NCBI GenBank assembly: GCA_034231615.1
Contig: CM067309.1
Span: 38,595,627 to 38,659,626, forward strand
Length of the DNA: 64,000 nt
Reading direction: 5' to 3'
Origin: Meghimatium bilineatum
Lineage: Eukaryota; Mollusca; Gastropoda; Stylommatophora; Philomycidae
Under the pieces are notes generated by a model. That model had not been told where the DNA came from. It saw nothing but the letters and a program-made list of their open reading frames with translations, and ran no database searches. Positions within the stretch are counted from its first letter, which is position 1, and each line of letters starts with the position of its first letter. Position numbers and translations under genes: made by a program. This document shows positions 16,801-64,000 of this stretch, one piece after another.

Positions 16801-19800
16801 ATGTGTCAGGCCAAAAGATGCAGATATCGCTGCAATGCTGTAAACCATGACACAATGCATTCCGTTCTCCAGACTACATCCTGCTGGAAATCTAATAGGA
16901 CCATGGTCTTGCTACAAGAGAGATCCAGCGGGAGTTTGAGAATGAACGCAGAAGGAGAAGAAAACTTAGACATAGAATGATATATTCTTCTTCTTCAGCG
17001 TTCATTCTCAAACTCCCGCTGGATCTCTCTTGTAGCAAGACCATGGTCCTATTAGATTTCCAGCAGGATGTAGTACAGAGAATAGAAATGGTTGTATCAC
17101 CATTTTATTTGCGCCAATGGCCCGACACAGACATCTTCGACAGGAATGATATATAATATTTGTTTATCTTACGAACCTCTATCTAACTGAAGTGACCTTG
17201 AATTTTTAACCTGAAGAATCTCCTAGCTGTTGAGACTTATTCTTCTCGTAGGTAAATCAGGAACAGAAGTGCTGAAAAAATACATGCGGAGTATCACCGC
17301 AAACTTGGACACAAATGATTGCTCAATCTGCTTCGATAAACTCAGTGAGGCTTCCAGCTACGGTGAGGGTGATATTGATGCACACAATGCAGTTGAGCTG
17401 ATTACGTGCGGACATCAGTTTCATAAGCTGTGTCTCCTGGCTATGTACAACAGTAATCATAAGGTAAGTTGTCCTGCTTGTTCTGGAGGTTGTTATGGGA
17501 AGGCACCTAGAATATGTTTTGATAAAGTTATTCGGGAAAATGTCCAGAGGATGTTTTTCAGAAATTGTTTATATAGGAGATGGTGTTTGAGATAATTGTC
17601 CAGAAATTGTTTAGGTAAGTTTAGAAAATGATCTTGGACAGATGTCTAGAAAATGGTCATAGGAATCTGTTCTGGATGTGGTCATCAGATATTGTTGTCC
17701 ATGAGATGGTTATAGAACGTTGTCTAGAAGATGTTCTCAGGAGGTAAAACATTTTAATTTGTTAGAGAACATTGAAATAAGGAATGCCTGTCTGGTGAAA
17801 TAAGTGTACAATGCAAATTAAAATTTTCCTTTTTTTTTAATTTCAGAGATAATAATTTGTCAAATATTTATTTGATCCGGTATTGATAGAATCTGTGGAT
17901 GTCAGAATCTGTTGAGGTTAGAATCTATGGATGATAGAATCTGTGGATGTTAAACTCTTGGGTTACATAGTATTGATGTTATATCTTGCCTTAGTATAAT
18001 TTCTTATGGCTTGTGTTCTCAGCACCCTCCTTTACTGCAGTGAAACATGGACAACCTATATATACCAGGAGAGATGACAAAACATCTTTCATATACGGTG
18101 CCTGCATATAATTTTTGAGTTAGATAGCAGGACAAAGTCACTAGCATTGATGTACTGGAAAGAACAGGCAATGCAAAATTGTTTTGTATGCCCAGTGCGC
18201 ATGGACTCAGATAGCTGAGTCACACTAGGAGGGTGGAAGATGGCAGAACACAGAAGGATCTACTTTATTGAGAATTGCAGTCAGAAAAGATCCAGAGTTG
18301 ACAATTACTTTGGTACAAAGACATATACAAATGTAATATGCATGATACAGGCATTGATATGGAATGAAATGCAAAGTGTTACCGCATTGGTCTCGGCGGA
18401 CCAAGAATTTACAGATAACCCAGATCCCAAAAGTATCTTCTCATGGTGCACCCTGGAAACAAAAATACAGATGCTCGTGCTGTTTCTGGCTAACACTTTT
18501 GGGGATCGTATCCATGAATATGGAGGCAGCACATGGAATTGCACTGCAAAAAAACAGGCAACGTCTCCGACACTTCTGTGATAACCCATGCAGCAGCACT
18601 TGTGATACACAGTGATGCTACTCAGTCCAGCCCCAGCATTGGCCTATGCAAATGCTGCGAAATGGGGACAGATGTTATGATGAATATTAAGAGTTGTGCA
18701 TTTGTCTCTGTCCCATTGGAGTGAATTCAAATCGAATGATAAAATCAGAAAAGAGACACATCAAAATTTCATTACAGATGTTATCAGAAAACACAGTTGG
18801 TCCTACATTGGGCATGTCCTACGCGCTGACACCAACAGAATACACCATCAATCTCTTGAATGGATACCTACAGGCAAAAGAGCAAGGGGTAGACCAAAAG
18901 AAATACTCAGAAGAACAATACTTAGAGAAAGTAAAACAACCAATATTCATACTATTTAAGAACTGCACAGAATAGCTTTGAACAGACAGAATTGGAGAGA
19001 ACTGACCTCTGCCCTATGCGCTAACTTCAGCACAAAAGGAAAATGAATTAATTAGTCTCTGTAAGGATAACATACTGAGTACAGTGTGAGGCTGTCTTCA
19101 CATGCAAATAGAGCGGGAAAACATTACATGGAAACCGTATCTAAAGTTTTGCTCGAGACAAGATTCTAGTTCCCTGTGCTCCAAAATATGGGTAAAGACT
19201 CGGACTTGGATGAAGGGTTCACAATATCTCTGAATAACACCTCAGCTAAGAGGGTAAACAATCCTGAGCCCAACACTACCATTGATGTTTTCCTATACCA
19301 GAACGATGCTCACGGAGAGAAAAGGTTCAGTACCTAATGGGCAGAGACACAATATGTCTAATTACGCGAGACAAGTTCACTGGCAGTAGAACAACTCATG
19401 CGAGATTAACGTAGTCGACCCAAGCCTAAATCCCTTATTATCGCCTCTTCAGAGACTGCCACCCAGGGATATATTTTGGTCTGTAAAGTCCAAGTGGGTG
19501 CGAAACCGTCATGGCGTAGAGTCAATGCTCATCCATTGTCTGGCGATAGATAGGAAGGCTTTCACAGGCTAGGGGAGCCCACCTGAAGTAAAGGCATGAT
19601 AAAAACGGATGTACTGGACCCTTTAGAGGGGCGGGCAAATAACCCAGCTCTGCTGTGCAACTGACTGTGCAAAGTACTTCACGCTCCCCAACGGAAATCA
19701 TACAAACTTTGTGTTAGTTATCTGATAGCGAACACAGAAGAAGAAGATATGGAACAGGATGCCGTGGATCGTGTTGCATGGAAGAGAAAGATCAGGAATG

Positions 19801-22800
19801 GTATAAAGATAAAGGAAATAGTAATAACAGTTAGTTCAAGGGTTGCACGTATGAAGAGACACACAACAGTACACAATAATAAAAATGGGGACTGTGATGT
19901 CCTTGTACATACTGTGGAAGAAACTTTGTGGCTCAGATTGGTCTTGTGAGTAAAATCCATCATCTGCCCGTGTGTTCCGGGGCCTGAAAGGGGGGCAAGA
20001 ATAGCAACACTGTTTACCTTCCACGCATGTCCTAAAAGGCGACTAAGGAGGTTATGGGATGGAGTTGGCTGTCCCATTCCATATAGGGTAAGTGACCCAT
20101 TGCCATGCTGAAATCGGATGTGTCTGGTCGAAAGGCGCAGATATCGCAGCAATGCTGTAATCCATGACAGAACGCACTCCGTTCTCCAGACTACATCCTG
20201 CTAATCTGCAGGAGTTTGAGAATGAACGCAGAAGAAGAAGAACATGCATCATCGACATGAATCATAGATTTCTTACAACACAACAACAATACTCTTTTCT
20301 TCCTCATTCTGCAGTCGAAGTCAGATGCTTATAGAAGTAATCAATGAATTGACTGTAGTCACAAACCCCGAGACAGGGCAGTAGAGCTTATCTTCCAGCG
20401 CTGTTTTAGTTGACCATAGTTATCTTCTTCTTGTGTCGTACAGTCAGCATTTCTGTCAAATATGTTCTGTGTTTTCTGGAGATTGTCCACATATCAGTGT
20501 CAACTCCAAACTTTCTGTACATGTATTGTTGGAGTCTTTTGTAGTCAGTTCACAATTTAAAATTGTTCCTTTCTTCCAAGCTTGCAAATAGCATCATCAT
20601 TTTGGTAGCATGGGTGAGTTGAGTTCTATTCCATGATAATGGAGCTTTTGATGATGGACTTTATTTCTGACAATAATACCATCATCTGGAAAGATGGAAA
20701 CATGCCTAATATAACTTTAGTAGTTAAAAATAAAGGACCTACAAAATGTTTGACAAGTGTCAAGTAATCAGTATTTAGTACCTAGTTAAAAAGGGTCTAC
20801 AAATTGATTGTAAAATGTCAAGTATTCAGTACTTAGTACTTAGTTAAAAAGGGTCTACAAATTGTTTGACAAGTGTAAAGTATTTAGTAAGTATTTAGAA
20901 CTTAAGAAAGGGTCTACAAATTGTTTGACAAGAAAGTTGAAAGTTTGAAGTGTAAAGTATTCAGTATGTCTTTCTGATTCTCATTCAACTCCAGGATGAC
21001 AGTCTCCAGTGCCCCAGCTGTAAGATGATCTATGGAGAGAAGACTGGAATCTGCCCACCCGGTTACATGCACTGGAGAATAGTTCATGATCTTGCTTTGT
21101 CAGGCTATGAAGGTTATGGAACAATTATTGTGTCCTACCACATCTCTTCAGGCATTCAGGTAAGGCATCCTTCTTCTTCTTCAGCGTTCATTCTCAAACT
21201 CCCGCTGAATCTAGCAGGACCATGGTCTACTAGATTTCCAGCAGGATGTAAACCAGAGAATGGAAATGCATTGTGTCGCCGTTTTATCTGAGCCAATGGC
21301 CCGACACATCCGTCTTCTGCGGAAGGTAAGGCATCCAAATGTTCTTATCAAATTACAATAGCGCTGGTGTGTTGCTAGGGCCCAAAAGGGGAGCAAAGAA
21401 TAGCAACACTGTTTATCTTCCATGCATGTCATAAAAGATGACTAAGGAGGTTATGGGATGGAGTTGGCTGTCCCATACTATATAGGGTCACTGACCCAAA
21501 GCCATGCTGAAGTCGAATGTGTCAGGCCGCTAGGCACAGATATCGCAGCAAATTTTGTAAACCAAAACACAACACATTCCGTTCTCCGGACTACATCCTG
21601 CTAATCTGCAGGAGTTTCAGAACGAAAGCAGAAGAAGAAATGACAATAGTACTTGTGTACAACACCAGTTTGATGGGTTTTATATAACGAATGCACATAC
21701 TATAAGATATTGGTATGAAAACATACAAATAACAGCATACAAGACGGTTTCAACTTTCAGGTATTTTTCAAGAAACTACAAAACAAACAATAAAAACCAT
21801 GAAAGATAATGGCACCATTATTATGTTGTATTTATTGTAGTCAAGAAGTTCCTGGCTGGTTAACAACACAAGTGTAATCTTGTTTCTTCTTAATTCCAGG
21901 GCCCGGAGCATCCTAGTCCAGGTCAAGGCTATTCTGCTCGAGGTTTCCCTCGGCAAGGGTTTATACCAGATTGTGACAAGGGAAGAAAGGTTGTTTTATT
22001 TTGTCTTGGTTATTTATTTGATTTCTTTGCTAGTTATGCAATCTCCAGGACGGATAAGTCGCTAGTTATGGGATCTCCAGGACGGTTAAGTTGTTGTTAA
22101 ATTATGGGATCTGTGATGGTTACATCATTTGCTTTTTGCTCAAGAGGTTGCAGGGTCACATCCCGCTATGCAAGTCTTTTTTTATAAAGTGGTAGCTACA
22201 GGGTTATGTGCGATGAGTAATACTCTCAGCAGGCAGTGTGACACTTTGTTGAGATAATCTCATCAGGCAGTGTGACACTTTGTTGACATAATCTCAGCAG
22301 GCAGTGTGCTACTTTGTAGAAAGGGACGGAGGACATATGGGGTAACTTGGGTACAATTAAATCATTCCTTTACATTTTTGAGCCTGTGTTAGTTCAAGGG
22401 GGGAGAAAGCAGAGCAGTTAGATGGAAGTTGACTTTCGGATCTGGTGTCTCACATCACAAGTTTGTTTCATTTATGAAGTGAATCCAAAAAAAATAATTG
22501 TCAGTGATGCACAGCTGCAGGTAGGCAGAATAGGAACAGTTAGTTACCACACGCTGAAGGACATACTCAATAGGAAATTGGAGCACCTATGGACGTGTCT
22601 GAAGTGCTGTGATGATGATCCATTGACTAACCATTCATTCATAACACTTTATATAGAAATCTATTGCAACTATGACAGAAATTATGATTTTACAATCTGG
22701 AATATGCTGTCTTTCTAGTATTCTCTACTTGATGTCTACACCGCCAGACAAGTCTTATGTTCTCTACTTGATGTCTACACCGTTAGACAAGTCTTATGTT

Positions 22801-24311
22801 CTCTACTTGATGTCTACACCGCCAGACAAGTCTTATGTTCTCTACTTGATGTCTACACCGCCAGACAAGTCTTATGTTCTCTACTTGATGTCTACACCGC
22901 CAGACAAGTCTTATGTTCTCTACTTGATGTCTACACCGTTAGACAAGTCTTATGTTCTCTACTTGATGTCTACACTGTCAGACAAGTCTTATGTTCGCTA
23001 CTTGATGTCTACACCGTCAGACAAGTCTTATGTTCACTACTTGATGTCTACACCGTTAGACAAGTCTTATGTTCACTACTTGATGTCTACACCGTTAGAC
23101 AAGTCTTATGTTCACTACTTGATGTCTACACCGTTAGACAAGTCTTATGTTCTCTAATTGATGTCTACACTGTCAGACAAGTCTTATGTTCTCTACTTGA
23201 TGTCTACACTGTCAGACAAGTCTTATGTTCTCTACTTGATGTCTACACCTTCAGACATGTCTTATGTATGAACTCCACTGTTGTCTGAAGCTTAGATTTA
23301 GTAGCCCTTTTATTTACAGGCATATGACATCATGCACTGCTTACAAGTAGAACCTAAATGGAAGTATAACTTGTTTACTTTAGAAAAAAATGTTCATGTT
23401 AGAAATGTACATTTTAAAGTTATTTACTTTAGAAAATTATCCCATGTTCAAAATATATTTTAGAAAATTATCCCATGTTCAAAATATATTTTAGAAAATT
23501 ATCCCATGTTCAAAATGTATTTTAGAAACTTATCCCATGTTCGAAATGTAATTTAGAAACTTATCCCATGTTCGAAATGTATATTAGAAAATTATTCAAT
23601 TTTCGAATGTATATTAAAAAAATTATTCCACGTTCGAAATGTATATTAGAAAATTATTCCATGTTTGAAATATTAGAAAATTATCCCATGTTCAAAATGT
23701 ATATCAGAAAATTATTCCATGTTTGAATTGTATATTAGAAAATTATTCCATGTTCAAAATGTATATTAGAAAATTATTCCATGTTTGAATTGTATATTAG
23801 AAATTTATTCCATGTTCGAAATGTATATTGGAAAATTATTCCATGTTCGAAATGTATTTTAGAAACTTATCCATGTTCGAAATGTATATTAGAAATTTAT
23901 TCAATTTTCGAAATGTATATTAGAAAATTATTCCATGTTCGAATGAATATTAGAAATTTATTCCATGTTCGAAATGCTCATTTTAAAGTTGTTAACATTA
24001 GAAAATTATTCCATGTTTGAAATGTATATTAGAAAATTATTCTATATTTAAAATGTACATTTTAAAGTTGTGTGTTTGCTTTATTTCAGGTCTTGAAACT
24101 CTTGATGGAAGCTTTCAAGCGTCGTTTGATGTTTACCATATCAACCTCGCACACAACAGGGGAGATAAACACCGTAACATGGAATGAAATACATCACAAG
24201 ACGGAACCACATGGGAATCATTCAGGACATGGGTATCCTGACCCACAGTATTTGGACAATGTCCTGATGGAGTTGGCGGCACATGGCGTGACTGAGGATT
24301 GTTTAAGATAG
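1642..24311 (+). CDS. DTX: Deltex E3 ubiquitin-protein ligase (DTX1/2/4-type), 3' ten exons, N-terminus outside window
   Basis: Deltex proteins are RING E3 ubiquitin ligases that regulate Notch; their WWE domains bind Notch ankyrin repeats and the DTC domain binds NAD+/ADP-ribose. Ten exons join in phase: 1642-1880, 4526-4652, 7381-7515, 10733-10788, 12608-12800, 13525-13752, 17252-17463, 20995-21159, 21900-21989, 24090-24311. The visible ~554 residues contain WWE2 (about 2-80), a basic stretch, a Q/H- and S/P-rich linker (about 95-326), a RING finger (about 350-406; [19 protein letters not shown]) and a DTC domain (about 407-554; [40 protein letters not shown]). Order and spacing match vertebrate DTX1. 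The first WWE domain and start codon must lie upstream. No break is seen in any exon. NAA25 lies downstream in convergent orientation. The family call is near certain; which vertebrate paralogue it matches best cannot be decided, and an invertebrate may have only one. Confidence 0.96.
2092..2268 (+). mobile_element. SINE family B copy
   Basis: Starts near cgccgaagacggatgtgtcg, contains gaccatggtcctgctacaag, ends gagtttgagaatgaacg plus a GAA-repeat tail. Other copies: 16986-17142, 21171-21323, 53576-53732. Shares its 3' end with family A, suggesting a common LINE partner for retrotransposition. Confidence 0.8.
2262..2382 (+). repeat. 25-bp minisatellite, ~5 copies
   Basis: Unit cttcaatctcataatag plus ttatgtcc. 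It begins directly at the GAA tail of the SINE B copy, so the tail or its target may have seeded it. Confidence 0.9.
2500..3115 (-). mobile_element. LINE endonuclease-domain fragment
   Basis: Minus-strand frame gives [39 protein letters not shown] and [11 protein letters not shown]. This is the C-terminal half of an APE-type LINE endonuclease, with the SDH catalytic triplet. A ~34-bp segment is tandemly duplicated at about 2713-2780, repeating [10 protein letters not shown]. 5' and 3' parts of the LINE are missing. Confidence 0.85.
3367..3632 (+). repeat. 26-bp minisatellite, ~10 copies
   Basis: Unit aacaggagacagggcagtat with an A-run of variable length. Long minus-strand open frames across it are products of the repeat. 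Confidence 0.95.
3694..3826 (+). mobile_element. tRNA-derived SINE, 5' part (interrupted)
   Basis: Begins with a tRNA-like head: A-box tggccgagtggttagag, typical of Ser/Leu tRNAs, then a decayed B-box (ccagggttttacc). A second copy lies on the minus strand at 51770-51965. This copy is split by a TTAA-flanked DNA element and resumes at 4342 with tggcttttatcgcacaagcc. Confidence 0.8.
3831..4337. mobile_element. piggyBac-like MITE with TTAA target duplication
   Basis: Flanked by TTAA at 3827-3830 and 4338-4341. Terminal inverted repeats of ~33 bp: ccccttaactgcggaggtat at the left and the reverse complement of the right end tcccttagctgcggaggtat. CCCTT-type ends plus TTAA targets are the piggyBac hallmark. 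Non-autonomous: its interior is mostly an inserted SINE A. Confidence 0.85.
3940..4216 (-). mobile_element. SINE family A, full length, inside the piggyBac-like MITE
   Basis: Runs from the GAA-type tail (cttcttcttctgcgttc) to the head near cggccc-type sequence at 4195-4216. A 14-bp target-site duplication ggatgctttattat lies at 3926-3939 and 4217-4230. Confidence 0.9.
4342..4375 (+). mobile_element. tRNA-derived SINE, 3' part (continues 3694-3826)
   Basis: tggcttttatcgcacaagcc matches the minus-strand SINE copy near 51800, where the sequence is uninterrupted. This shows that the DNA element at 3831-4337 landed in the SINE. Confidence 0.75.
4526..4652 (+). CDS. DTX: Deltex exon b: basic segment after WWE2
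   Basis: Acceptor tatttcag|ATGAGA, donor TTCCAG|gtttgt; enters in phase 0 and leaves with one base over. It encodes a basic stretch (RVRRIQRR) where DTX1 has its Arg-rich run directly after WWE2, then a Ser/Thr/Pro-rich start of the linker. The ATG at the exon edge is an internal Met, not a start. Confidence 0.88.
4745..4935 (+). repeat. Degenerate tandem repeat, ~25-bp unit
   Basis: Loose repetition of a ggacatgaagggagatcaag-like unit; related sequence occurs at 2565-2650 next to the LINE endonuclease fragment. Confidence 0.7.
5345..5625 (+). mobile_element. LINE 3' fragment
   Basis: Plus-strand frames give [20 protein letters not shown] and a PENSSTPDA-type end, matching the better preserved copy at 48140-48765 ([21 protein letters not shown]). 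RT C-terminal region, decayed. Confidence 0.65.
5640..6440. other. Intron sequence, no feature recognised
   Basis: Contains poly-G tracts near 5891 and 5969; no exon, repeat family or coding similarity seen. Confidence 0.4.
6443..6668 (+). mobile_element. SINE family A copy, 5'-truncated
   Basis: Contains ctgtttaccttccatgcatg, gtcagtgacccaaagccatg, and ends in gaatgaacgcagaagaaga. Confidence 0.85.
7381..7515 (+). CDS. DTX: Deltex exon c: linker
   Basis: Acceptor ttttacag|GACAAG, donor CTGG|gtaaaa. In the frame fixed by the previous exon it is open and encodes a Gln/Pro/Asn-rich linker (for example [19 protein letters not shown]). Low-complexity linkers between WWE and RING are normal for Deltex. 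Support is splice sites plus phase continuity, not sequence similarity. Confidence 0.8.
7605..7845 (+). mobile_element. SINE family A, strongly diverged
   Basis: Retains the order ggcgtgcaaagaatagcaa, tgcatgttgtaagag, cagatatcacagc and gagaactaacgcagaag. Much older than the other copies. Confidence 0.7.
8290..8410 (+). mobile_element. SINE family C copy
   Basis: Shares tgtgctaggcctgca-type sequence and acgcttcctaacagaaatca with copies at 19640-19746 and 54854-54978; ends tgagaatgcagaaga. Confidence 0.65.
8415..9050 (-). mobile_element. LINE 3' fragment, decayed
   Basis: Minus-strand pieces include [30 protein letters not shown] and a basic GGRRR-like end with tryptophan. These are RT thumb and C-terminal motifs of a non-LTR element. 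Several stops and shifts. Confidence 0.7.
9060..10065. other. Intron sequence with a tRNA B-box-like motif
   Basis: AT-rich. One B-box-like motif, gagttcgatcccc, lies at about 9710, with no clear A-box; possibly a decayed SINE head. Nothing else is recognised. Confidence 0.35.
10070..10260 (+). repeat. 24-bp minisatellite, ~8 copies
   Basis: Unit gacaggttcctaggtggcgg plus tagt. The in-frame DRFLGGGS repeat reflects the unit length being a multiple of three; it is not treated as protein. Confidence 0.95.
10495..10665 (+). repeat. Dispersed repeat with internal duplication
   Basis: A second copy of the block at 1445-1530; the segment cttcatcatcatcatgtgtc plus tagagctacctactcacag is duplicated inside it. 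Confidence 0.65.
10733..10788 (+). CDS. DTX: Deltex exon d: short linker exon
   Basis: A 56-nt exon with acceptor acttttcag|TCTCTG and donor AATACA|gtaagt. It enters with one base carried over, ends in phase 0 and encodes [18 protein letters not shown]. It is supported by consensus splice sites and by the frame agreeing on both sides. Confidence 0.75.
11467..12075 (+). repeat. 30-bp/21-bp minisatellite, ~21 copies
   Basis: Unit ccactaaacatttcatcaca plus aagtcaaagt, with a 21-bp deletion variant (cacgtcaaagt) near 11589-11745. Both unit lengths are multiples of three, giving open frames on both strands. Confidence 0.95.
12608..12800 (+). CDS. DTX: Deltex exon e: His/Gln-rich linker
   Basis: Acceptor acgtctag|GGTCCA, donor CTCCCAG|gtagga. 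Encodes a His/Gln-rich linker ([23 protein letters not shown]). Open in the required frame for all 64 codons. A 20-bp minisatellite begins about 33 nt into the following intron. Confidence 0.82.
12833..13485 (+). repeat. 20-bp minisatellite, ~32 copies
   Basis: Unit attgttgactgtactcatgt with G/A and A/T variants. It starts ~33 nt after a Deltex exon and ends ~40 nt before the next one, so it fills almost the whole 724-nt intron. Confidence 0.96.
13525..13752 (+). CDS. DTX: Deltex exon f: Ser-rich linker before RING
   Basis: Acceptor ctttttag|TTACAG; an alternative acceptor 6 nt downstream (ttacag) keeps frame and would drop two residues. Donor CTAAGG|gtatgc. Encodes Pro/Ser/Gln-rich sequence ending in a poly-Ser tract and a basic GRSKKTKG, the equivalent of the Lys-rich segment before the RING in DTX1. 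Confidence 0.85.
14070..14290 (+). repeat. Composite local duplication
   Basis: Two ~52-bp direct copies (catgaccaa(g/a)ctgt ... atgacctg) flank three copies of a gcgagtgtggcaaaatgtaa-like unit. Confidence 0.6.
14480..14850 (-). mobile_element. LINE RT C-terminal fragment
   Basis: Minus strand reads [36 protein letters not shown] and a QEEGG-type end. YxCQTWTLT is the conserved C-terminal RT motif. Open for ~115 codons; 5'-truncated. Confidence 0.8.
15045..15215 (+). mobile_element. LINE 3' fragment
   Basis: The plus strand includes [19 protein letters not shown], the conserved W-x-GH-x-x-RM motif of non-LTR reverse transcriptase C-termini. Decayed. Confidence 0.65.
15335..15490 (+). mobile_element. 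LINE 3' terminal fragment
   Basis: Plus strand reads [19 protein letters not shown], related to RISGRKAKGRPRKW on the minus strand at 35640-35830. Confidence 0.55.
15665..16575 (+). mobile_element. LINE with RNase H domain, 3' portion
   Basis: Plus-strand frames show RNase H motifs: [45 protein letters not shown] with [14 protein letters not shown]. These are followed by the cysteine-poor tail [15 protein letters not shown], then a GAA-type 3' end near 16575. The order RNase H plus RTGHNRL tail is typical of I-group non-LTR elements. Several frame changes; 5'-truncated. Confidence 0.85.
16668..16965 (+). mobile_element. SINE A/B chimera
   Basis: The 5' two thirds match family A (gcaaagaataacaacactg, ccatgctgaagtcggatg). 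The 3' end carries the family B segment gaccatggtcttgctacaag before the shared tail gagtttgagaatgaacg. It shows recombination or a common origin of the two families. Confidence 0.85.
16986..17142 (-). mobile_element. SINE family B, inverted to its neighbour
   Basis: Tail ttcttcttcttcagcg at low coordinates; head near ggcccgacacagacatc. With the preceding copy it forms ~95-bp inverted arms (16867-16962 and 16985-17080) with a ~22-nt loop. Confidence 0.88.
17252..17463 (+). CDS. DTX: Deltex exon g: RING finger, first part
   Basis: Acceptor tctcgtag|GTAAAT, donor CATAAG|gtaagt. Encodes EVLKKYM (the conserved helix before the RING) and zinc ligands CSIC, then [10 protein letters not shown]. Catalyses E2-dependent ubiquitin transfer in this family. 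The last RING cysteines are in the next exon. An inverted SINE pair ends about 100 nt upstream of the acceptor. Confidence 0.96.
18030..18690 (+). mobile_element. LINE C-terminal fragment (same family as 41150-41800)
   Basis: Pieces on the plus strand include [34 protein letters not shown] and [17 protein letters not shown], the C-terminal tail of a non-LTR ORF2. It gives the unexpanded version of the sequence that became two tandem arrays at 40548-41492. Confidence 0.8.
18715..19048 (+). mobile_element. RTE-like LINE 3' end
   Basis: [45 protein letters not shown], ending [14 protein letters not shown]-stop. Nearly the same as 61553-62020 but older; the target-rich end is gaatgaatt. Confidence 0.88.
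19050..19638. other. Unrecognised, less AT-rich block in intron
   Basis: Base composition is more balanced than its surroundings and no long frame is open. It may be the body of an unknown element ending at the SINE C tail (19746), but no second copy is in the window. Confidence 0.35.
19640..19746 (+). mobile_element. SINE family C copy
   Basis: cacgctccccaacggaaatc and agcgaacacagaagaagaag match the copies at 8290 and 54854. Confidence 0.7.
19748..19960 (+). mobile_element. LINE 3' end with zinc-finger-like tail
   Basis: Gives [20 protein letters not shown] and, one frame on, [20 protein letters not shown]: the C-x2-C finger that closes many non-LTR ORF2 proteins. The same tail is at 41610-41800. 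Confidence 0.78.
19962..20243 (+). mobile_element. SINE family A, full length
   Basis: Head gcccgtgtgttccggggcc through gaatgaacgcagaagaagaa. Head, body and tail agree with the copy at 39690-39971. Confidence 0.9.
20735..20940 (+). repeat. ~50-bp degenerate tandem repeat, ~4 copies
   Basis: Unit ggtctacaaattgtttgaca with agtgt(c/a)aagtattcagtac. Ends ~55 nt before a Deltex exon. Confidence 0.8.
20995..21159 (+). CDS. DTX: Deltex exon h: end of RING and start of DTC domain
   Basis: Acceptor ctccag|GATGAC, donor ATTCAG|gtaagg; exactly 55 codons. Encodes [15 protein letters not shown] (last RING Cys pair plus DTC entry) and [10 protein letters not shown]. The donor is duplicated: a SINE inserted at 21171 created a second copy of the 13 bases spanning the exon border at 21324-21336. 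Reading past the true donor runs into an in-frame stop at about 21289, inside the SINE. Confidence 0.96.
21171..21323 (-). mobile_element. SINE family B inserted at a Deltex splice donor
   Basis: 13-bp target-site duplication aggtaaggcatcc at 21158-21170 and 21324-21336. The duplicated sequence includes the exon end and 5' splice site AG|GTAAGG. Tail ttcttcttcttcagcg at low end, head at cttctgcgg. Confidence 0.93.
21365..21638 (+). mobile_element. SINE family A copy
   Basis: Head tgtgttgctagggccc to tail aacgaaagcagaagaagaa; head-to-head with the family B copy just upstream. Confidence 0.88.
21900..21989 (+). CDS. DTX: Deltex exon i: DTC domain middle
   Basis: Acceptor attccag|GGCCCG, donor AGAAAG|gttgtt; 30 codons, phase 0 on both sides. 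Encodes GPEHPSPG and [12 protein letters not shown], among the best conserved DTC motifs in animals. Confidence 0.96.
22020..22320 (+). repeat. Short local duplications around a decayed tRNA-SINE
   Basis: Two copies of an atctccaggacgg(a/t)taag unit (22037-22090) and three of a caggcagtgtg(a/c)(c/t)actttgt unit (22230-22320). Between them (22130-22225) gctcaagaggttgcagggtc and ataaagtggtagctacag resemble the SINE at 35457. Confidence 0.5.
22530..22660 (+). mobile_element. LINE 3' tail fragment
   Basis: Plus strand [20 protein letters not shown] then CDDDPLTN. The same tail is at 44270-44375 (KHLWTCPEC) and, in related form, at 54225 and 57430. Confidence 0.6.
22723..23265 (+). repeat. 39-bp minisatellite, ~14 copies
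   Basis: Unit ctctacttgatgtctacacc plus g(c/t)(c/t)agacaagtcttatgtt. Thirteen codons per unit, hence an artefactual open frame. Confidence 0.96.
23383..24063 (+). repeat. 31-bp minisatellite, ~21 copies, degenerate
   Basis: Unit agaaaattattccatgttcg plus aaatgtatatt with substitutions and small indels. More diverged than the neighbouring 39-bp array. Ends ~26 nt before the last Deltex exon, where the polypyrimidine tract is. Confidence 0.92.
24090..24311 (+). CDS. DTX: Deltex terminal coding exon: end of DTC domain and stop
   Basis: Acceptor tatttcag|GTCTTG; open to TAG at 24309-24311. Encodes [33 protein letters not shown] and GVTEDCLR, the expected C-terminus. The histidines in the EIHHKTE segment belong to the pocket implicated in NAD+/ADP-ribose binding in the family. 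The acceptor is only ~26 nt downstream of a 31-bp minisatellite; an old SINE starts ~34 nt after the stop. Confidence 0.97.
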
Positions 24312-24344: not shown

Positions 24345-24568
24345 TTTTCTACTTCAGCATACATTCTCACAATTCCTGCTATCTAGCAGGATGTAATCCA
24401 GATATTATGCGATATCTGCACCTCCTTCTGCTCGAAATATCCAACTTCAGCATGACTCATGTTTCATCATTTTGATGGTACAGCCAACCCTCACCCCAAA
24501 ACCACCTTAATCTCCTCTTACGCTTAGTAGTTAATATCATTGCTATTCTCTGCTCCACTTTTGGGCTG
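24345..24568 (-). mobile_element. SINE family A, old copy in the DTX 3' flank
   Basis: Diverged but ordered: cattctcacaattcctgct, gatatctgcacctccttctg, aaccaccttaatctcctctt, attgctattctctgctcc. Begins ~34 nt after the Deltex stop, so probably inside its 3' UTR. Confidence 0.8.
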
Positions 24569-35100: not shown

Positions 35101-38100
35101 CTAGTAAGTCATCCTATGCACAAGCATCTCTCACACAGTAAGCTAACCTTTTTTTGTCACTATCTAAATTGTGGCCACTGTCATCATTGTTTGACCTTTC
35201 TTCTGCTGTCAATGCTAACTTTCACTCAAATGAAACAGATAAAACCAACTAATGAAATATGTCATACCTGTGGCAAGGACGGTCCTTTGTGTTTCTTGGA
35301 TTTCTTGGACCAGCTAGCTTTGAGAGACTTGAGCCCTCTACTGCACACTCCTGCTAGAATGCTGAGGTAGGATACTGTCTGTTCCACAAAACATAAGCTA
35401 CTTTAGAATTATATGACATTTTCAAATGTTATAATTTATTGTCATGACACTTAGGAATATCCCTGGCGCAGTGGTTGAGCCAATCGCTTTGTGATCAAGA
35501 GGTCGGGAGTTTGAATCTCGTTCACCGTGTTTTGTTCATAAAGTGGAATTTTACGGAGATTTCCAGGATTATCCTATGAAGGTACAGGTACATGCTATGA
35601 GTGGAGCTCCTGGAAGGCGGATTGTCTTTCCCCAGGTGAATAATTGTTGATCGCATTCACACTTGTCGTTAAGCGTAGGGGTGGGAGCTTAAGCTGTCGT
35701 TTCAAGGCCAGATGTGTCGCCGAGGTTGCATTTAGTCCATATTTGTTCAAGGCTATCTTGATGTTTTCTATTCACCATTTTCTTGGTCTACCTTTGGCCT
35801 TACGTCCGGATATTCTTTTATATATATCGGATATATGGAGTAACCAGAGTACAATAAGGTCAATCCTCACCGCCTTTATAGCCCTTTTCTCACGACATAG
35901 GCCAGTTGTGATATCGTTCTAAAACAACTTCCCACAAACCAGAGCTGGTTGTTAGACGTATAGACTAAATTTAGTGTCTAGCTATGACATCAACCAAGAT
36001 CACTATGACGCTTACTCAATACTAGACGTGACACTGACTCAAGAATAGATGTGTCACTGACTCAAGACTAAATGCCAGACAATGCCTCTTGACTAGATAT
36101 GACACTATGACACTGAGTAGACTAGACGCGACAGAGACTCAAAATTATATGTGATACTCACCCGTGTGCAGTGCATTTAGCATAATCACTCAGATTTCTT
36201 AGTCTTTATCCCTTCAGCTGACATTGTGCTGCAATATCTGTGCCTTTCAGTGTTGTACATACATTTTACGAAAAGTCATTCAAATCCTTCAAAGTAGAAA
36301 GTCTGAATTCTGAAACAGTTCACAATGCCATCTTCTGTCACAGGAAAATAATGGTGGATATCATCTTCTGTCACAGGAAAATAATGGTGGATATCATCTT
36401 CTGTCACAGGAAAATAATGGTGGATATCATCTTCTGTCACAGGAAAATAATGGTGGATATCATCTTCTGTCACAGGAAAATAATGGTGGATATCATCTTC
36501 TGTCACAGGAAAATAATGGTGGATATCATCTTCTGTCACAGGAAAATAATGGTGGATATCATCTTCTGTCACAGGAAAATAATGGTGGATATCATCTTCT
36601 GTCACAGGAAAATAATGGTGGATATCATCTTCTGTCACAGGAAAATAATGGTGGATATCATCTTCTGTCACAGGAAAATAATGGTGGATATCATCTTCTG
36701 TCACAGGAAAATAATGGTGGATATCATCTTCTGTCACAGGAAAATAATGGTGGATATCATCTTCTGTCACAGGAAAATAATGGTGGATATCATCTTCTGT
36801 CACAGGGAAATAATGGTGGATATCATCTTCTGTCACAGGAAAATAATGGTGGATATCATCTTCTGTCACAGGAAAATAATGGTGGATATCATCTTCTGTC
36901 ACAGGAAAATAATGGTGGATATCATCTTCTGTCACAGGAAAATAATGGTGGATATCATCTTCTGTCACAGGAAAATAATGGTGGATATCATCTTCTGTCA
37001 CAGGAAAATAATGGTGGATATCATCTTCTGTCACAGGAAAATAATGGTGGATATCATCTTCTGTCACAGGAAAATAATGGTGGATATCATCTTCTGTCAC
37101 AGGAAAATAATGGTGGATATCATCTTCTGTCAGGAAAATCAGATCAGAGTGGATATAATCAGTCTCTCTCCCTGTCTACCGTTAAATTGTTGTAACAGCA
37201 TCATCCTCGCTTCCATCCATTGCACTACTGATGGAGCAATTTTTGAAAGATCGGACAATCATCTTGGACAGAACATCTGACGATTCTTTGACCCACTTAG
37301 CGGTGTCAGCTTTTTTGACATTGCAACCCTTCGTCACAGCTTAATCCAAAAACGCTGTTCACTCATTCAATTTTGATCAAGTCTGTCCTTACATGGTTAC
37401 GTTAAAAGAGACATCTAGTGGATGCAGGAAGGACGGCTCCAAGAATTACAGATACAGACAGCTCCATCTCATGGCATCATTTTTCCACTTTCTCTGTGAG
37501 ATGTGCCCGAAAACGAATCCCAGACTAGCACGGTTTTCTGGTTTTCTTTTATAGTGCCCTACCTCTGCATCTCCCCCCCCCCCCCCCACACACTTTATCT
37601 GACCATTCCGAGTGCGACTTTCGTCCATCAAACATTTGATGTGGGCACGCACAAAAGCACAACTTGGAAATTTCACCCCCTTAGACAGTCTTGAGTTTAA
37701 AATAATCACAGGAGAAGGGAGAGCAACCATGTCCCATCTGCCATGCAACCTAAACCAACTGTGAAATGCGTCTTCTCATTTCCAGTCGTCTTTACAAAAA
37801 CTGTCTTCACACCTTTTCTTTCCACCATACGATTTGAAGGCAAATCTAAGCTGACAGGGGTTCTGTCTATGTTAGGCCTTTACAATCAGGTGTTATTTTG
37901 AGTACAACCTTATCACAAAAGCTGACAAAACTACACATCCATTATAATGACTCTTCACCAATCAGTTTGAGGAATGTCCTTTAAATGTCAAGGCTGGTGC
38001 TATTTGACACTTGCCAAGTGAAAAGTTGACATGATCCATTCATTGAATAGACTTTAATTTAGCGTAATGGCTAATGCTATCGTTGCAAGCCAACATTTTA

Positions 38101-58989: not shown

Positions 58990-60300
58990 AGTGCCTCCAT
59001 CTCGTCATCAAGTGCCGTCTCCGCAACGAAGGTTGGCTGCAACGTATCTCCAACATCTCCTGTCTCTTGTCTTGGTGGTGCACTCTGCTAGACTGTAACC
59101 TGTCCATCGTGTAATGTTACTCTCCCACTTGTATCTCTGCCTACCTCTTGCTCGCTTCCCTTTGACTTTACCCTCAAGTAAGGTCTTCAATAGGGTGTCA
59201 TGTCTTTTAATGTGTCCAAAGTATTTTATTTGCCTGATCTTTATTTCTCTTAGTAGTTCTTTCTTCATATTAAGTGTTTTTAGCACCTCTTTATTTGTTT
59301 TCTTCTCTTTCCATGATGTTCTCCCTATTCTTCTATATACCCACATCTCAAAGGCATCAATTTTGTCTTCTAATTGTTTATTTAGTGTCCATGTTTCTGA
59401 GCCATACATTAATATGGAATAGATGTAGCATTTTATAATTCTCATTTTTAACTTGTTTGTAATTTGTTTAGATATTAATAATTTCCTCATGTCATTGAAG
59501 GTACTTTTAGCCATTCCTATTCTCCTTTTAACTTCTGTTTCACATCTGCCATCATTTGTGACTATGTGTCCAAGATATTGATACTGTTTTACTTGTTGTA
59601 GTTTCTCTCCCTGTATGTTTATGTTTACCTCCTGTTCTTCTGTGTTTTTGCTGATTATCATGGTTTTTGTTTTTTGAATGTTTATATCCAGTCCATATTC
59701 ATTACTTGATTTATTGACTTGATCTATTAGTCTTTGTAACTCATGTTCACTTTCTGCTAAAAGAACAGTGTCATCTGCATATCTAATGTTGTTTATTATT
59801 TTCCCATTGATCTTGAGTCCTGGTATTTCTTCTATATTTTTAAAGATATTCTCTGTGTAGATATTAAATAGGCTTGGTGATAAAATGCATCCTTGTCTTA
59901 CCCCTCTTCTTATTTCTATGTACGGTGAGTAGCTGTTTTCACACCTTATTGATGCAGTTTGTTCCCAATATATATTTCTAATCAGCCTGATGTCTTTTCC
60001 ATCTATGCCTATTTCTTGAAGACATTTGATTAATTTTTCATGTTGGACTCTGTCAAAGGCCTTGCTGTAGTCTATGAAGCAAATATAGATACTTTTTTGG
60101 ACTTCTATATATTTATCTATCACTAGCCGGATACTCAGTATAGCTTCTCTGGTTCCTTTGTTTTTCCTAAAACCGAATTGTTCTTCACCGACCTCCATGT
60201 CTATCTTGTTCTTAATTCTTTCATGTATTATCTTGAGAAGTATTTTAGTTAGATGGCTCATTAGACTTATTGTTCTATAATCTGTACAGTCCACAGCCCT
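58990..60300 (-). mobile_element. Non-LTR retrotransposon (LINE), 5'-truncated, open RT frame
   Basis: A single uninterrupted minus-strand frame of ~430 codons ends at a stop by 59008. RT motifs in order: CTDYRTISLMSHLTKILLKI, GFRKNKGTREAI, CFIDYSKAFDRVQHEKLI, GVRQGCILSPSLFN, the catalytic box RYADDTVLLAES, then YQYLGHIVTNDGR, MYGSETWTLN, IKYFGHIKRHDTLL, and the tail YVAANLRCGDGT with a gatgacgag-type 3' end. Endonuclease and N-terminal RT parts are missing. The family resembles RTE/Proto2-like LINEs; the clade is not certain. Other copies: 45879, 48778, 54708/55534. The lack of any stop suggests a young insertion. Confidence 0.93.
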
Positions 60301-60349
60301 GGGCTGGGTGGAGGCTAATAGGACCATCACGAGGGTAGGGGGAGACGAC

Positions 60350-60510
60350 ACTATCACACATTCCCCAATAGCATTGTGACAATATCACATATTCCCCAAT
60401 AGCATTGTGACACTATCACACATTCCCCAATAGCATTGTGACAGTATCACATATTCCCCAAAAGCATTGCGACATTACTACATATTCCCCAATAGCATTG
60501 CGACAGTACC
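60350..60510 (+). repeat. 29-bp minisatellite, ~5.5 copies
   Basis: Unit cacattccccaatagcattg plus tgacaatat; abuts the truncated 5' end of the LINE. Confidence 0.93.
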
Positions 60511-62022: not shown

Positions 62023-62069
62023 GAATGAATATATACATTTATAAATGATAAACATAAACTAATAAACAT

Positions 62070-64000
62070 AGAATTTACCCACCACTAGTCTAGATGGATA
62101 ACCGAATACTTCAAGCTTTACAATCTTGGACATTTCCATATCTGATTGACCCACCACTAGTCTAGATGGATAACCGAATACTTCAAGCTTTACAATCTTG
62201 GACATTTCCATATCTGATTGACCCACCACTAGTCTAGATGGATAACCGAATACTTCAAGCTTTACAATCTTGGACATTTCCATATCTGATTTACCCACCA
62301 CTAGTCTAGATGGATAACCGAATACTTCAAGCTTTACAATCTTGGACATTTCCATATCTGATTGACCCACCACTAGTCTAGATGGATAACCGAATACTTC
62401 AAGCTTTACAATCTTGGACATTTCCATATCTGATTGACCCACCACTAGTCTAGATGGATAACCGAATACTTCAAGCTTTACAATCTTGGACATTTCCATA
62501 TCTGATTGACCCACCACTAGTCTAGATGGATAACCGAATACTTCAAGCTTTACAATCTTGGACATTTCCATATCTGATTGACCCACCACTAGTCTAGATG
62601 GATAACCGAATACTTCAAGCTTTACAATCTTGGACATTTCCATATCTGATTGACCCACCACTAGTCTAGATGGATAACCGAATACTTCAAGCTTTACAAT
62701 CTTGGACATTTCCATATCTGATTGACCCACCACTAGTCTAGATGGATAACCGAATACTTCAAGCTTTACAATCTTGGACATTTCCATATCTGATTGACCC
62801 ACCACTAGTCTAGATGGATAACCGAATACTTCAAGCTTTACAATCTTGGACATTTCCATATCTGATTGACCCACCACTAGTCTAGATGGATAACCGAATA
62901 CTTCAAGCTTTACAATCTTGGACATTTCCATATCTGATTGACCCACCACTAGTCTAGATGGATAACCGAATACTTCAAGCTTTACAATCTTGGACATTTC
63001 CATATCTGATTGACCCACCACTAGTCTAGATGGATAACCGAATACTTCAAGCTTTACAATCTTGGACATTTCCATATCTGATTGACCCACCACTAGTCTA
63101 GATGGATAACCGAATACTTCAAGCTTTACAATCTTGGACATTTCCATATCTGATTGACCCACCACTAGTCTAGATGGATAACCGAATACTTCAAGCTTTA
63201 CAATCTTGGACATTTCCATATCTGATTTACCCACCACTAGTCTAGATGGATAACCGAATACTTCAAGCTTTACAATCTTGGACATTTCCATATCTGATTG
63301 ACCCACCACTAGTCTAGATGGATAACCGAATACTTCAAGCTTTACAATCTTGGACATTTCCATATCTGATTTACCCACCACTAGTCTAGATGGATAACCG
63401 AATACTTCAAGCTTTACAATCTTGGACATTTCCATATCTGATTTACCCACCACTAGTCTAGATGGATAACCGAATACTTCAAGCTTTACAATCTTGGACA
63501 TTTCCATATCTGATTTACCCACCACTAGTCTAGATGGATAACCGAATACTTCAAGCTTTACAATCTTGGACATTTCCATATCTGATTTACCCACCACTAG
63601 TCTAGATGGATAACCGAATACTTCAAGCTTTACAATCTTGGACATTTTCCATATCTGATTTACCCACCACTAGTCTAGATGGATAACCGAATACTTCAAG
63701 CTTTACAATCTTGGACATTTCCATATCTGATTTACCCACCACTAGTCTAGATGGATAACCGAATACTTCAAGCTTTACAATCTTGGACATTTCCATATCT
63801 GATTTACCCACCACTAGTCTAGATGGATAACCGAATACTTCAAGCTTTACAATCTTGGACATTTCCATATCTGATTTACCCACCACTAGTCTAGATGGAT
63901 AACCGAATACTTCAAGCTTTACAATCTTGGACATTTCCATATCTGATTTACCCACCACTAGTCTAGATGGATAACCGAATACTTCAAGCTTTACAATCTT
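62070..64000 (+). repeat. 72-bp satellite array, ~27 copies, continuing past the window
   Basis: Unit acccaccactagtctagatg, gataaccgaatacttcaagc, tttacaatcttggacatttc, catatctgattt. Copies are almost identical; the main variant is gattt(acccacc) versus gattg(acccacc). One copy near 63645 has an extra t. Seventy-two is a multiple of three, so minus-strand frames of over 500 codons arise. No host function assigned. Confidence 0.97.

Follow-up and report, generated by a model that had tools for sequence, protein, structure and literature searches.

A young SINE at a Deltex exon border appears to have duplicated the exon's 5' splice site in Meghimatium bilineatum

In the gastropod Meghimatium bilineatum, a 153-bp antisense SINE adjoins the 3' border of a Deltex exon, and each of the two copies of a 13-bp repeat on its flanks contains the splice donor AG|GTAAGG. 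The sequence of the repeat and the ends of related elements identify it as the target-site duplication of the SINE. The pre-mRNA would thus carry the same 5' splice site twice, as D1 at the exon end and as D2 beyond the SINE. The anatomy of the locus, the insertion, the reading frames and the predicted fold can be seen directly in this DNA.

RESULTS

A SINE is bounded by two copies of a splice donor

We analyzed 64,000 nucleotides of contig CM067309.1 (assembly GCA_034231615.1, positions 38,595,627 to 38,659,626, forward strand), referred to below as the window; the features discussed are collected in Table 1. The exon that ends at 21159 closes with ...TCAGGCATTCAG and is directly followed by GTAAGGCATCC. 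The 13-mer AGGTAAGGCATCC, which spans this border, occurs exactly twice in the window, the copies being 166 bp apart. The bases bordering them are unlike (C versus A before, T versus A after), and the repeat is therefore exactly 13 bp long. When up to two mismatches were allowed, the window held 3 sites compared with 1.06 expected, the third being at 57943 with two mismatches, and 10 of 100 shuffles held as many; the site count by itself is not significant. What goes beyond chance is the pairing of two exact 13-mers 166 bp apart that bound one complete repeat element. The original prediction had described both the 13-bp duplication with the exon end and donor and the 153-bp SINE between the two donors, and in both it was right to the base.

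Table 1. Features of the Deltex locus in the window (positions count from the first base of the window)
Feature	Position	Strand	Basis
Deltex exon that encodes most of the RING finger; its donor is AAG|GTAAGT	17252-17463	+	Sequence, Pfam RING models, DTX2 alignment
Deltex exon of 165 nt, RING end and DTC start; ends in phase 0 (SSGIQ|)	20995-21159	+	Sequence, domain search, alignment
Copy 1 of the target-site duplication; contains the original donor D1, CAG|GTAAGG (21159/21160)	21158-21170	+	Sequence
Full-length 153-bp SINE (SINE B), antisense to the gene; GAA tail adjoins copy 1	21171-21323	-	Sequence and family copies
Predicted pre-mRNA hairpin of 89 pairs between 21174-21317 and 21509-21639	21174-21639	+	In 3 of 4 folds, those containing SINE A
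In-frame TGA reached upon use of D2	21289-21291	+	Translation
Copy 2 of the target-site duplication; contains the second donor D2, AAG|GTAAGG (21325/21326)	21324-21336	+	Sequence
Local stem predicted to cover D2; 10 base pairs with a bulge, between 21325-21334 and 21339-21349	21325-21349	+	In 4 of 4 folds
ATTACAATAG, left target-site duplication of SINE A; 9/10 versus right copy	21352-21361	+	Sequence
Longer related SINE (SINE A) in sense orientation, opposite to SINE B	21362-21639	+	Sequence, blastn
ATGACAATAG, right target-site duplication of SINE A	21640-21649	+	Sequence
Next Deltex exon (GPEHP...GRK), 90 nt; weak donor AAG|GTTGTT	21900-21989	+	Sequence, alignment
Last coding exon, remainder of DTC; stop TAG at 24309-24311	24090-24311	+	Domain search, alignment

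SINE B is one of many similar copies. A genome search with it returned 39 matches besides the focal copy at 90-97% identity, 28 of which span positions 1-153 (40 scored among 2413 first-look candidates). In the 20 copies that we compared, the heads are closely alike and are accompanied by a GAA tail. The flanks of 19 of the 20 have at least 7 bp in common, with a longest shared stretch of 13, compared with 15 of 380 mismatched control pairs; this comparison included the focal copy and took in 3 bp of the element at each end. Because the other copies have similar ends and target-site duplications of their own, the focal locus is a true insertion. It is extremely unlikely that the repeat is instead an assembly error or a segmental duplication: the locus is known from one assembly, but the borders of the repeat are the ends that the SINE has in other copies, and the bases outside the 13 bp differ.

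SINE B has several features of its class, being short and non-coding, with many dispersed copies, variable-length duplications and a 3' tail of GAA simple repeats. As regards an RNA polymerase III promoter derived from tRNA, 5S or 7SL RNA, ARAGORN predicted no tRNA in the window, and a search of 21100-21700 against Rfam gave three matches only, all far below the cut-off. In six of the 20 copies (L002, L003, L004, L008, L009 and L020), the shared target stretch of at least 9 bp starts with GAA like the SINE tail, which suggests that the tail may anneal to its target. The focal target stretch starts with GGA, not GAA.

SINE B departs from a consensus of 19 similar copies at 4 of its 153 bases, and 3 of these 4 differences fall at CpG, although these copies are its best matches and its age is hence understated. 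It looks like a young copy of an abundant SINE, and the insertion looks recent. As we reconstruct the mechanism, target-primed reverse transcription would have put SINE B antisense on the exon-intron border of the Deltex gene, and the 13-bp staggered cut would have happened to cover the 5' splice site, copying the donor. The exon would have retained D1 after the insertion, with the exact copy D2 now lying beyond the SINE. The two donors are the same from -2 to +11, and since the insertion the old exon context has accompanied D1 and the old intron context D2.

The interrupted gene encodes a predicted Deltex E3 ligase

The four exons in Table 1, when joined, matched the DTC domain at 167.5 bits and the RING at 34 bits. 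The open frame 1578-1934 gave one WWE match, at 44.1 bits, and is probably part of the same gene, which by its domains appears to encode a Deltex E3 ligase with a RING followed by a DTC domain and a WWE upstream. Residues 6-228 of a 229-residue joined query aligned to DTX2 (PDB 6y22) with an E value of 4.9e-80; human DTX2 and DTX1 (PDB 6y22 and 6y5n) were aligned over 223 and 225 of the 229 residues, respectively. The GIQ|GPEHP junction that results from D1 is gap-free at this point against both. Since the D1 junction aligns to DTX2 without a gap, it is the one that yields the conserved protein, and the assignment of the exon to the DTC domain in the original prediction was well founded. The donor of the following exon (21987-21995) is weak, with a U1 duplex of -4.1 kcal/mol, and this exon end is nonetheless fixed by the DTX2 alignment.

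We searched the genome with a 158-residue query covering the last three coding exons and obtained 6 matches with E values of at most 0.01. Three lie in the window, and three weaker ones, 41-46% identical, lie on contig 1; apart from the latter, this search found the last three coding exons once in the genome. The raw translations of the three contig 1 loci held nothing usable at the exon junction, and there was no spliced retrocopy of Deltex, from which donor use might have been read, among the matches to the 158-residue query. Two fragments of the longer SINE at 24346-24566, just 3' of the Deltex stop, are probably within the 3' untranslated region. The window also contains two long open frames (36222-37280 and 62059-63669; 352 and 536 aa) that consist mostly of short tandem repeats, and a 458-aa open frame on the minus strand (59008-60384) that reads like a non-LTR reverse transcriptase, with YADD recognized by eye.

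A second, inverted SINE is predicted to place D2 in a hairpin loop

According to the original prediction, only a short context difference separates the two donors. This view proved too narrow, as it had missed SINE A, an inverted element 38 bp downstream. The two SINEs have their 3' parts in common. Given that the duplication of SINE B is identical at 13 of 13 positions and that of SINE A at 9 of 10, SINE A is probably the older element. Transcripts that carry the new SINE B and the nearby older, inverted SINE A should fold into a long hairpin, with D2 in the predicted loop and D1 just outside, 14 nt before the base. The fold of 21140-21660 had a free energy of -187.7 kcal/mol, compared with a shuffled mean of -136.81 (standard deviation 6.45; z = -7.89), and 0 of 100 shuffles were as stable. 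The expected number of pairs between the two SINEs was 89-90 in the native sequence and 0.1-25.7 when SINE A was shuffled (n = 20).

We also compared the predicted accessibility of the donors. The mean unpaired value of D2 was 0.19 in the native sequence and 0.13-0.35 with SINE A shuffled, which indicates that in these models the pairing of D2 scarcely depends on the hairpin; a local 10-pair stem covers it. The second half of this stem is old intron sequence, so the uninterrupted gene, with its single donor, could have formed the stem as well, and that donor presumably functioned despite it; for this reason we do not count the stem against D2. D1 is predicted to be partly paired too (0.36-0.45), and in the shortest fold snapshot, which ends at 21345, D2 is the more open of the two (0.56 versus 0.37 for D1).

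The locus holds a further arrangement of this kind. Two SINE-like stretches at 16848-16962 and 16985-17099 form an inverted repeat (115 nt, 90% complementary, 22-nt spacer) some 150 nt upstream of the RING exon acceptor (17252). This makes the RING exon the second one in the gene to have an inverted SINE pair at its border.

D1 is likely to dominate, and D2 would yield an unproductive message

Use of D2 adds 166 nt and shifts the frame, which leads to the in-frame stop that had been placed near 21289. The TGA found there lies 34 nt upstream of the D2 junction. Once the 90-nt exon is counted as well, its distance to the last coding junction is 124 nt. The protein anticipated from such a message was one that keeps the RING and loses most of the DTC domain. 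As regards the reading frame, this was borne out: the RING match is retained, while of the 133 DTC profile positions only 1-48 are still matched. A stable product is less to be expected than decay. Under the 50-nt rule for nonsense-mediated decay, a stop this far upstream of the last coding junction makes degradation likelier than a stable RING-only protein. D1 would give the normal protein, and the D2 message with its added 166 nt and stop should be removed.

With regard to donor preference, we consider it likely that D1 dominates, that D2 accounts for a small unproductive fraction and that the insertion is close to neutral. The calculated U1 duplex is stronger for D1 (-11.5 kcal/mol) than for D2 (-10.0 kcal/mol), the C at -3 of D1 pairing with U1. 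This pairing and the predicted looping of D2 both lean to D1, and an insertion this recent would be difficult to retain if it abolished most of the Deltex message. It is possible that the sequenced individual carries a deleterious or unfixed allele.

Work cited in PMC5585400 describes SRSF1 as favoring the intron-proximal donor, and hnRNP A1 the intron-distal one, when donors compete. As the intron-proximal site is D2 here, D2 could win, and SR-rich cells would favor it. If D2 were used often, the unproductive message could serve as dosage control, with the balance of splicing factors or hairpin formation setting the amount of surviving Deltex message. The likeness of the two donors, the old intron context that stays with D2 and the position of the stop relative to the last coding junction are all consistent with this reading. 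Against it, an insertion that looks so recent would cost Deltex output at once, and U1 pairing favors D1; we therefore regard regulated use of D2 as unlikely, with no more than an outside chance. A specific form of it, in which the older SINE A acts as a structural guard, is a long shot: pairing of the SINEs, possibly modulated by editing or by proteins that bind double-stranded RNA, would switch between D1 and D2 and set Deltex output through the unproductive message. If this were true, one transposon would have given the duplicate donor and a second its control, over the output of a Notch pathway component.

Two other fates of the transcript are less probable still. Very doubtful is a functional isoform in which the D2 message yields a stable RING-only protein and the DTC domain is cut off; the reading frame stays open as far as 21291, and the corresponding domain matches are kept, but the stop should trigger decay, and the tail of the protein would be translated antisense SINE. 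We give almost no credence to the SINE being removed as an intron of its own, by splicing from D1 to the AG of copy 2, restoration of AG|GTAAGG and splicing onward to 21900. Such recursive splicing would leave the final message unchanged, and copy 2 does present a juxtaposed AG|GT after the SINE, the layout of a ratchet point (PMC8605326). However, the acceptor ...TCTTCTGCGGAAG is poor by eye, with an A at -3 and purines just before, unlike the acceptors of the gene at 20994, 21899 and 24089, which end in CCAG or TCAG. Predominant use of D1, together with decay of the D2 message and near-neutrality of the insertion, is what we infer overall.

Donor-bearing duplications are expected without donor targeting

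The original prediction regarded a transposon that clones a splice site this exactly as rare, a judgment that our genome-wide counts do not sustain. AGGTRAG occurred within 14 nt of a SINE tail 11 times, its reverse complement 14 times and the reversed motif 32 times, and thus the donor motif is not enriched beside the SINE tail in the genome relative to matched controls. On these counts, we rejected targeting of donors by the SINE. A looser donor pattern gave 24 sites near the tail versus 4 in its built-in control, which points the other way, but this control is unmatched, since it reverses the tail along with the motif and mainly measures how common the TTC tail is.

Among the 24 looser-pattern sites, the motif is repeated with at least 11 bp, besides the focal copy, in L027 (within a tandem repeat) and L043. 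AGGTRAG lies near the tail in 10 other copies, and it is repeated intact at the other end of the element, outside tandem repeats, in L053 and L060; no exon was recognized by eye in three frames upstream of either. Three further candidates were not accepted as intact donor-bearing duplications: L054 is the same place as L027 and a tandem repeat, L052 lies in a tandem repeat, and in L058 AGGTAAG is repeated 340 bp on and does not adjoin the tail.

For an estimate of how often such events should arise, we approximated the copy number of the SINE. A 33-bp stretch of its tail has 2812 exact matches in the genome, and blastn gave 5 matches of at least 100 bp for the window and 12 for flanking sequence totalling 121,000 bases. 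Six of the 61 flank loci were left out as they lie inside the window, and one place was fetched twice (L027 and L054). Nearly all of the remaining loci had been fetched for holding such elements or the tail motif, and the figure of roughly 126,000-160,000 copies, which derives from this biased density, is crude. With this crude copy number and an assumed 100,000-200,000 donors per genome, 47-119 insertions whose 13-bp duplication covers an 8-base donor are expected before selection. An insertion that covers a donor is rare per insertion and expected per genome. Among the open-licence papers listed, none described a SINE with a splice donor inside its duplication, as judged from the title and the opening of the abstract; this is weak evidence of absence.

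DISCUSSION

Classical duplicated-donor constructs placed competing 5' splice sites in one transcript. The Deltex locus is a natural version of this experiment, with one donor present twice in one pre-mRNA, once in exon and once in intron context, and with two SINEs able to pair around the second copy. Such a locus could reveal which factor settles the choice between equal donors, be it the exon context, the intron context or the structure of the RNA. It could also reveal how a host gene copes with a retrotransposon that sits precisely on the border of an exon. Compared with the RING-DTC proteins DTX2 and DTX1, the domain order is the same, and the joined exons show nothing else unusual.

Both elements of the arrangement, a transposon duplication that holds a splice site and an intronic inverted SINE pair, belong to kinds of event that are already known; here they occur in a clean natural form, and the locus is a well-defined case rather than a discovery. 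Introner transposons recruit splice sites from their target-site duplication (PMC9860276), and they share with SINE B the presence of splice-site sequence within the duplication made by the inserted element. Most Introners, however, are regarded as DNA elements that create new introns, whereas in the Deltex gene an existing donor was copied by a SINE and nothing points to a new intron. Alus that are inverted to each other within one intron can pair and alter the splicing of a neighboring exon (PMC2533698), and in the Deltex gene, too, two SINEs of opposite orientation that are able to pair lie in one intron beside an exon. Editing and minigenes served to test the Alu pair, which altered skipping of a downstream exon; in the Deltex gene, it is the loop of a predicted fold that holds a duplicate donor. 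In DOK7 intron 4 (PMC5585400), as in the Deltex gene, two donors face one acceptor, and one choice shifts the frame. The DOK7 donors are of unequal strength and 11 nt apart, whereas those of the Deltex gene are identical over 13 nt, lie 166 nt apart and appear to have been made by a retrotransposon.
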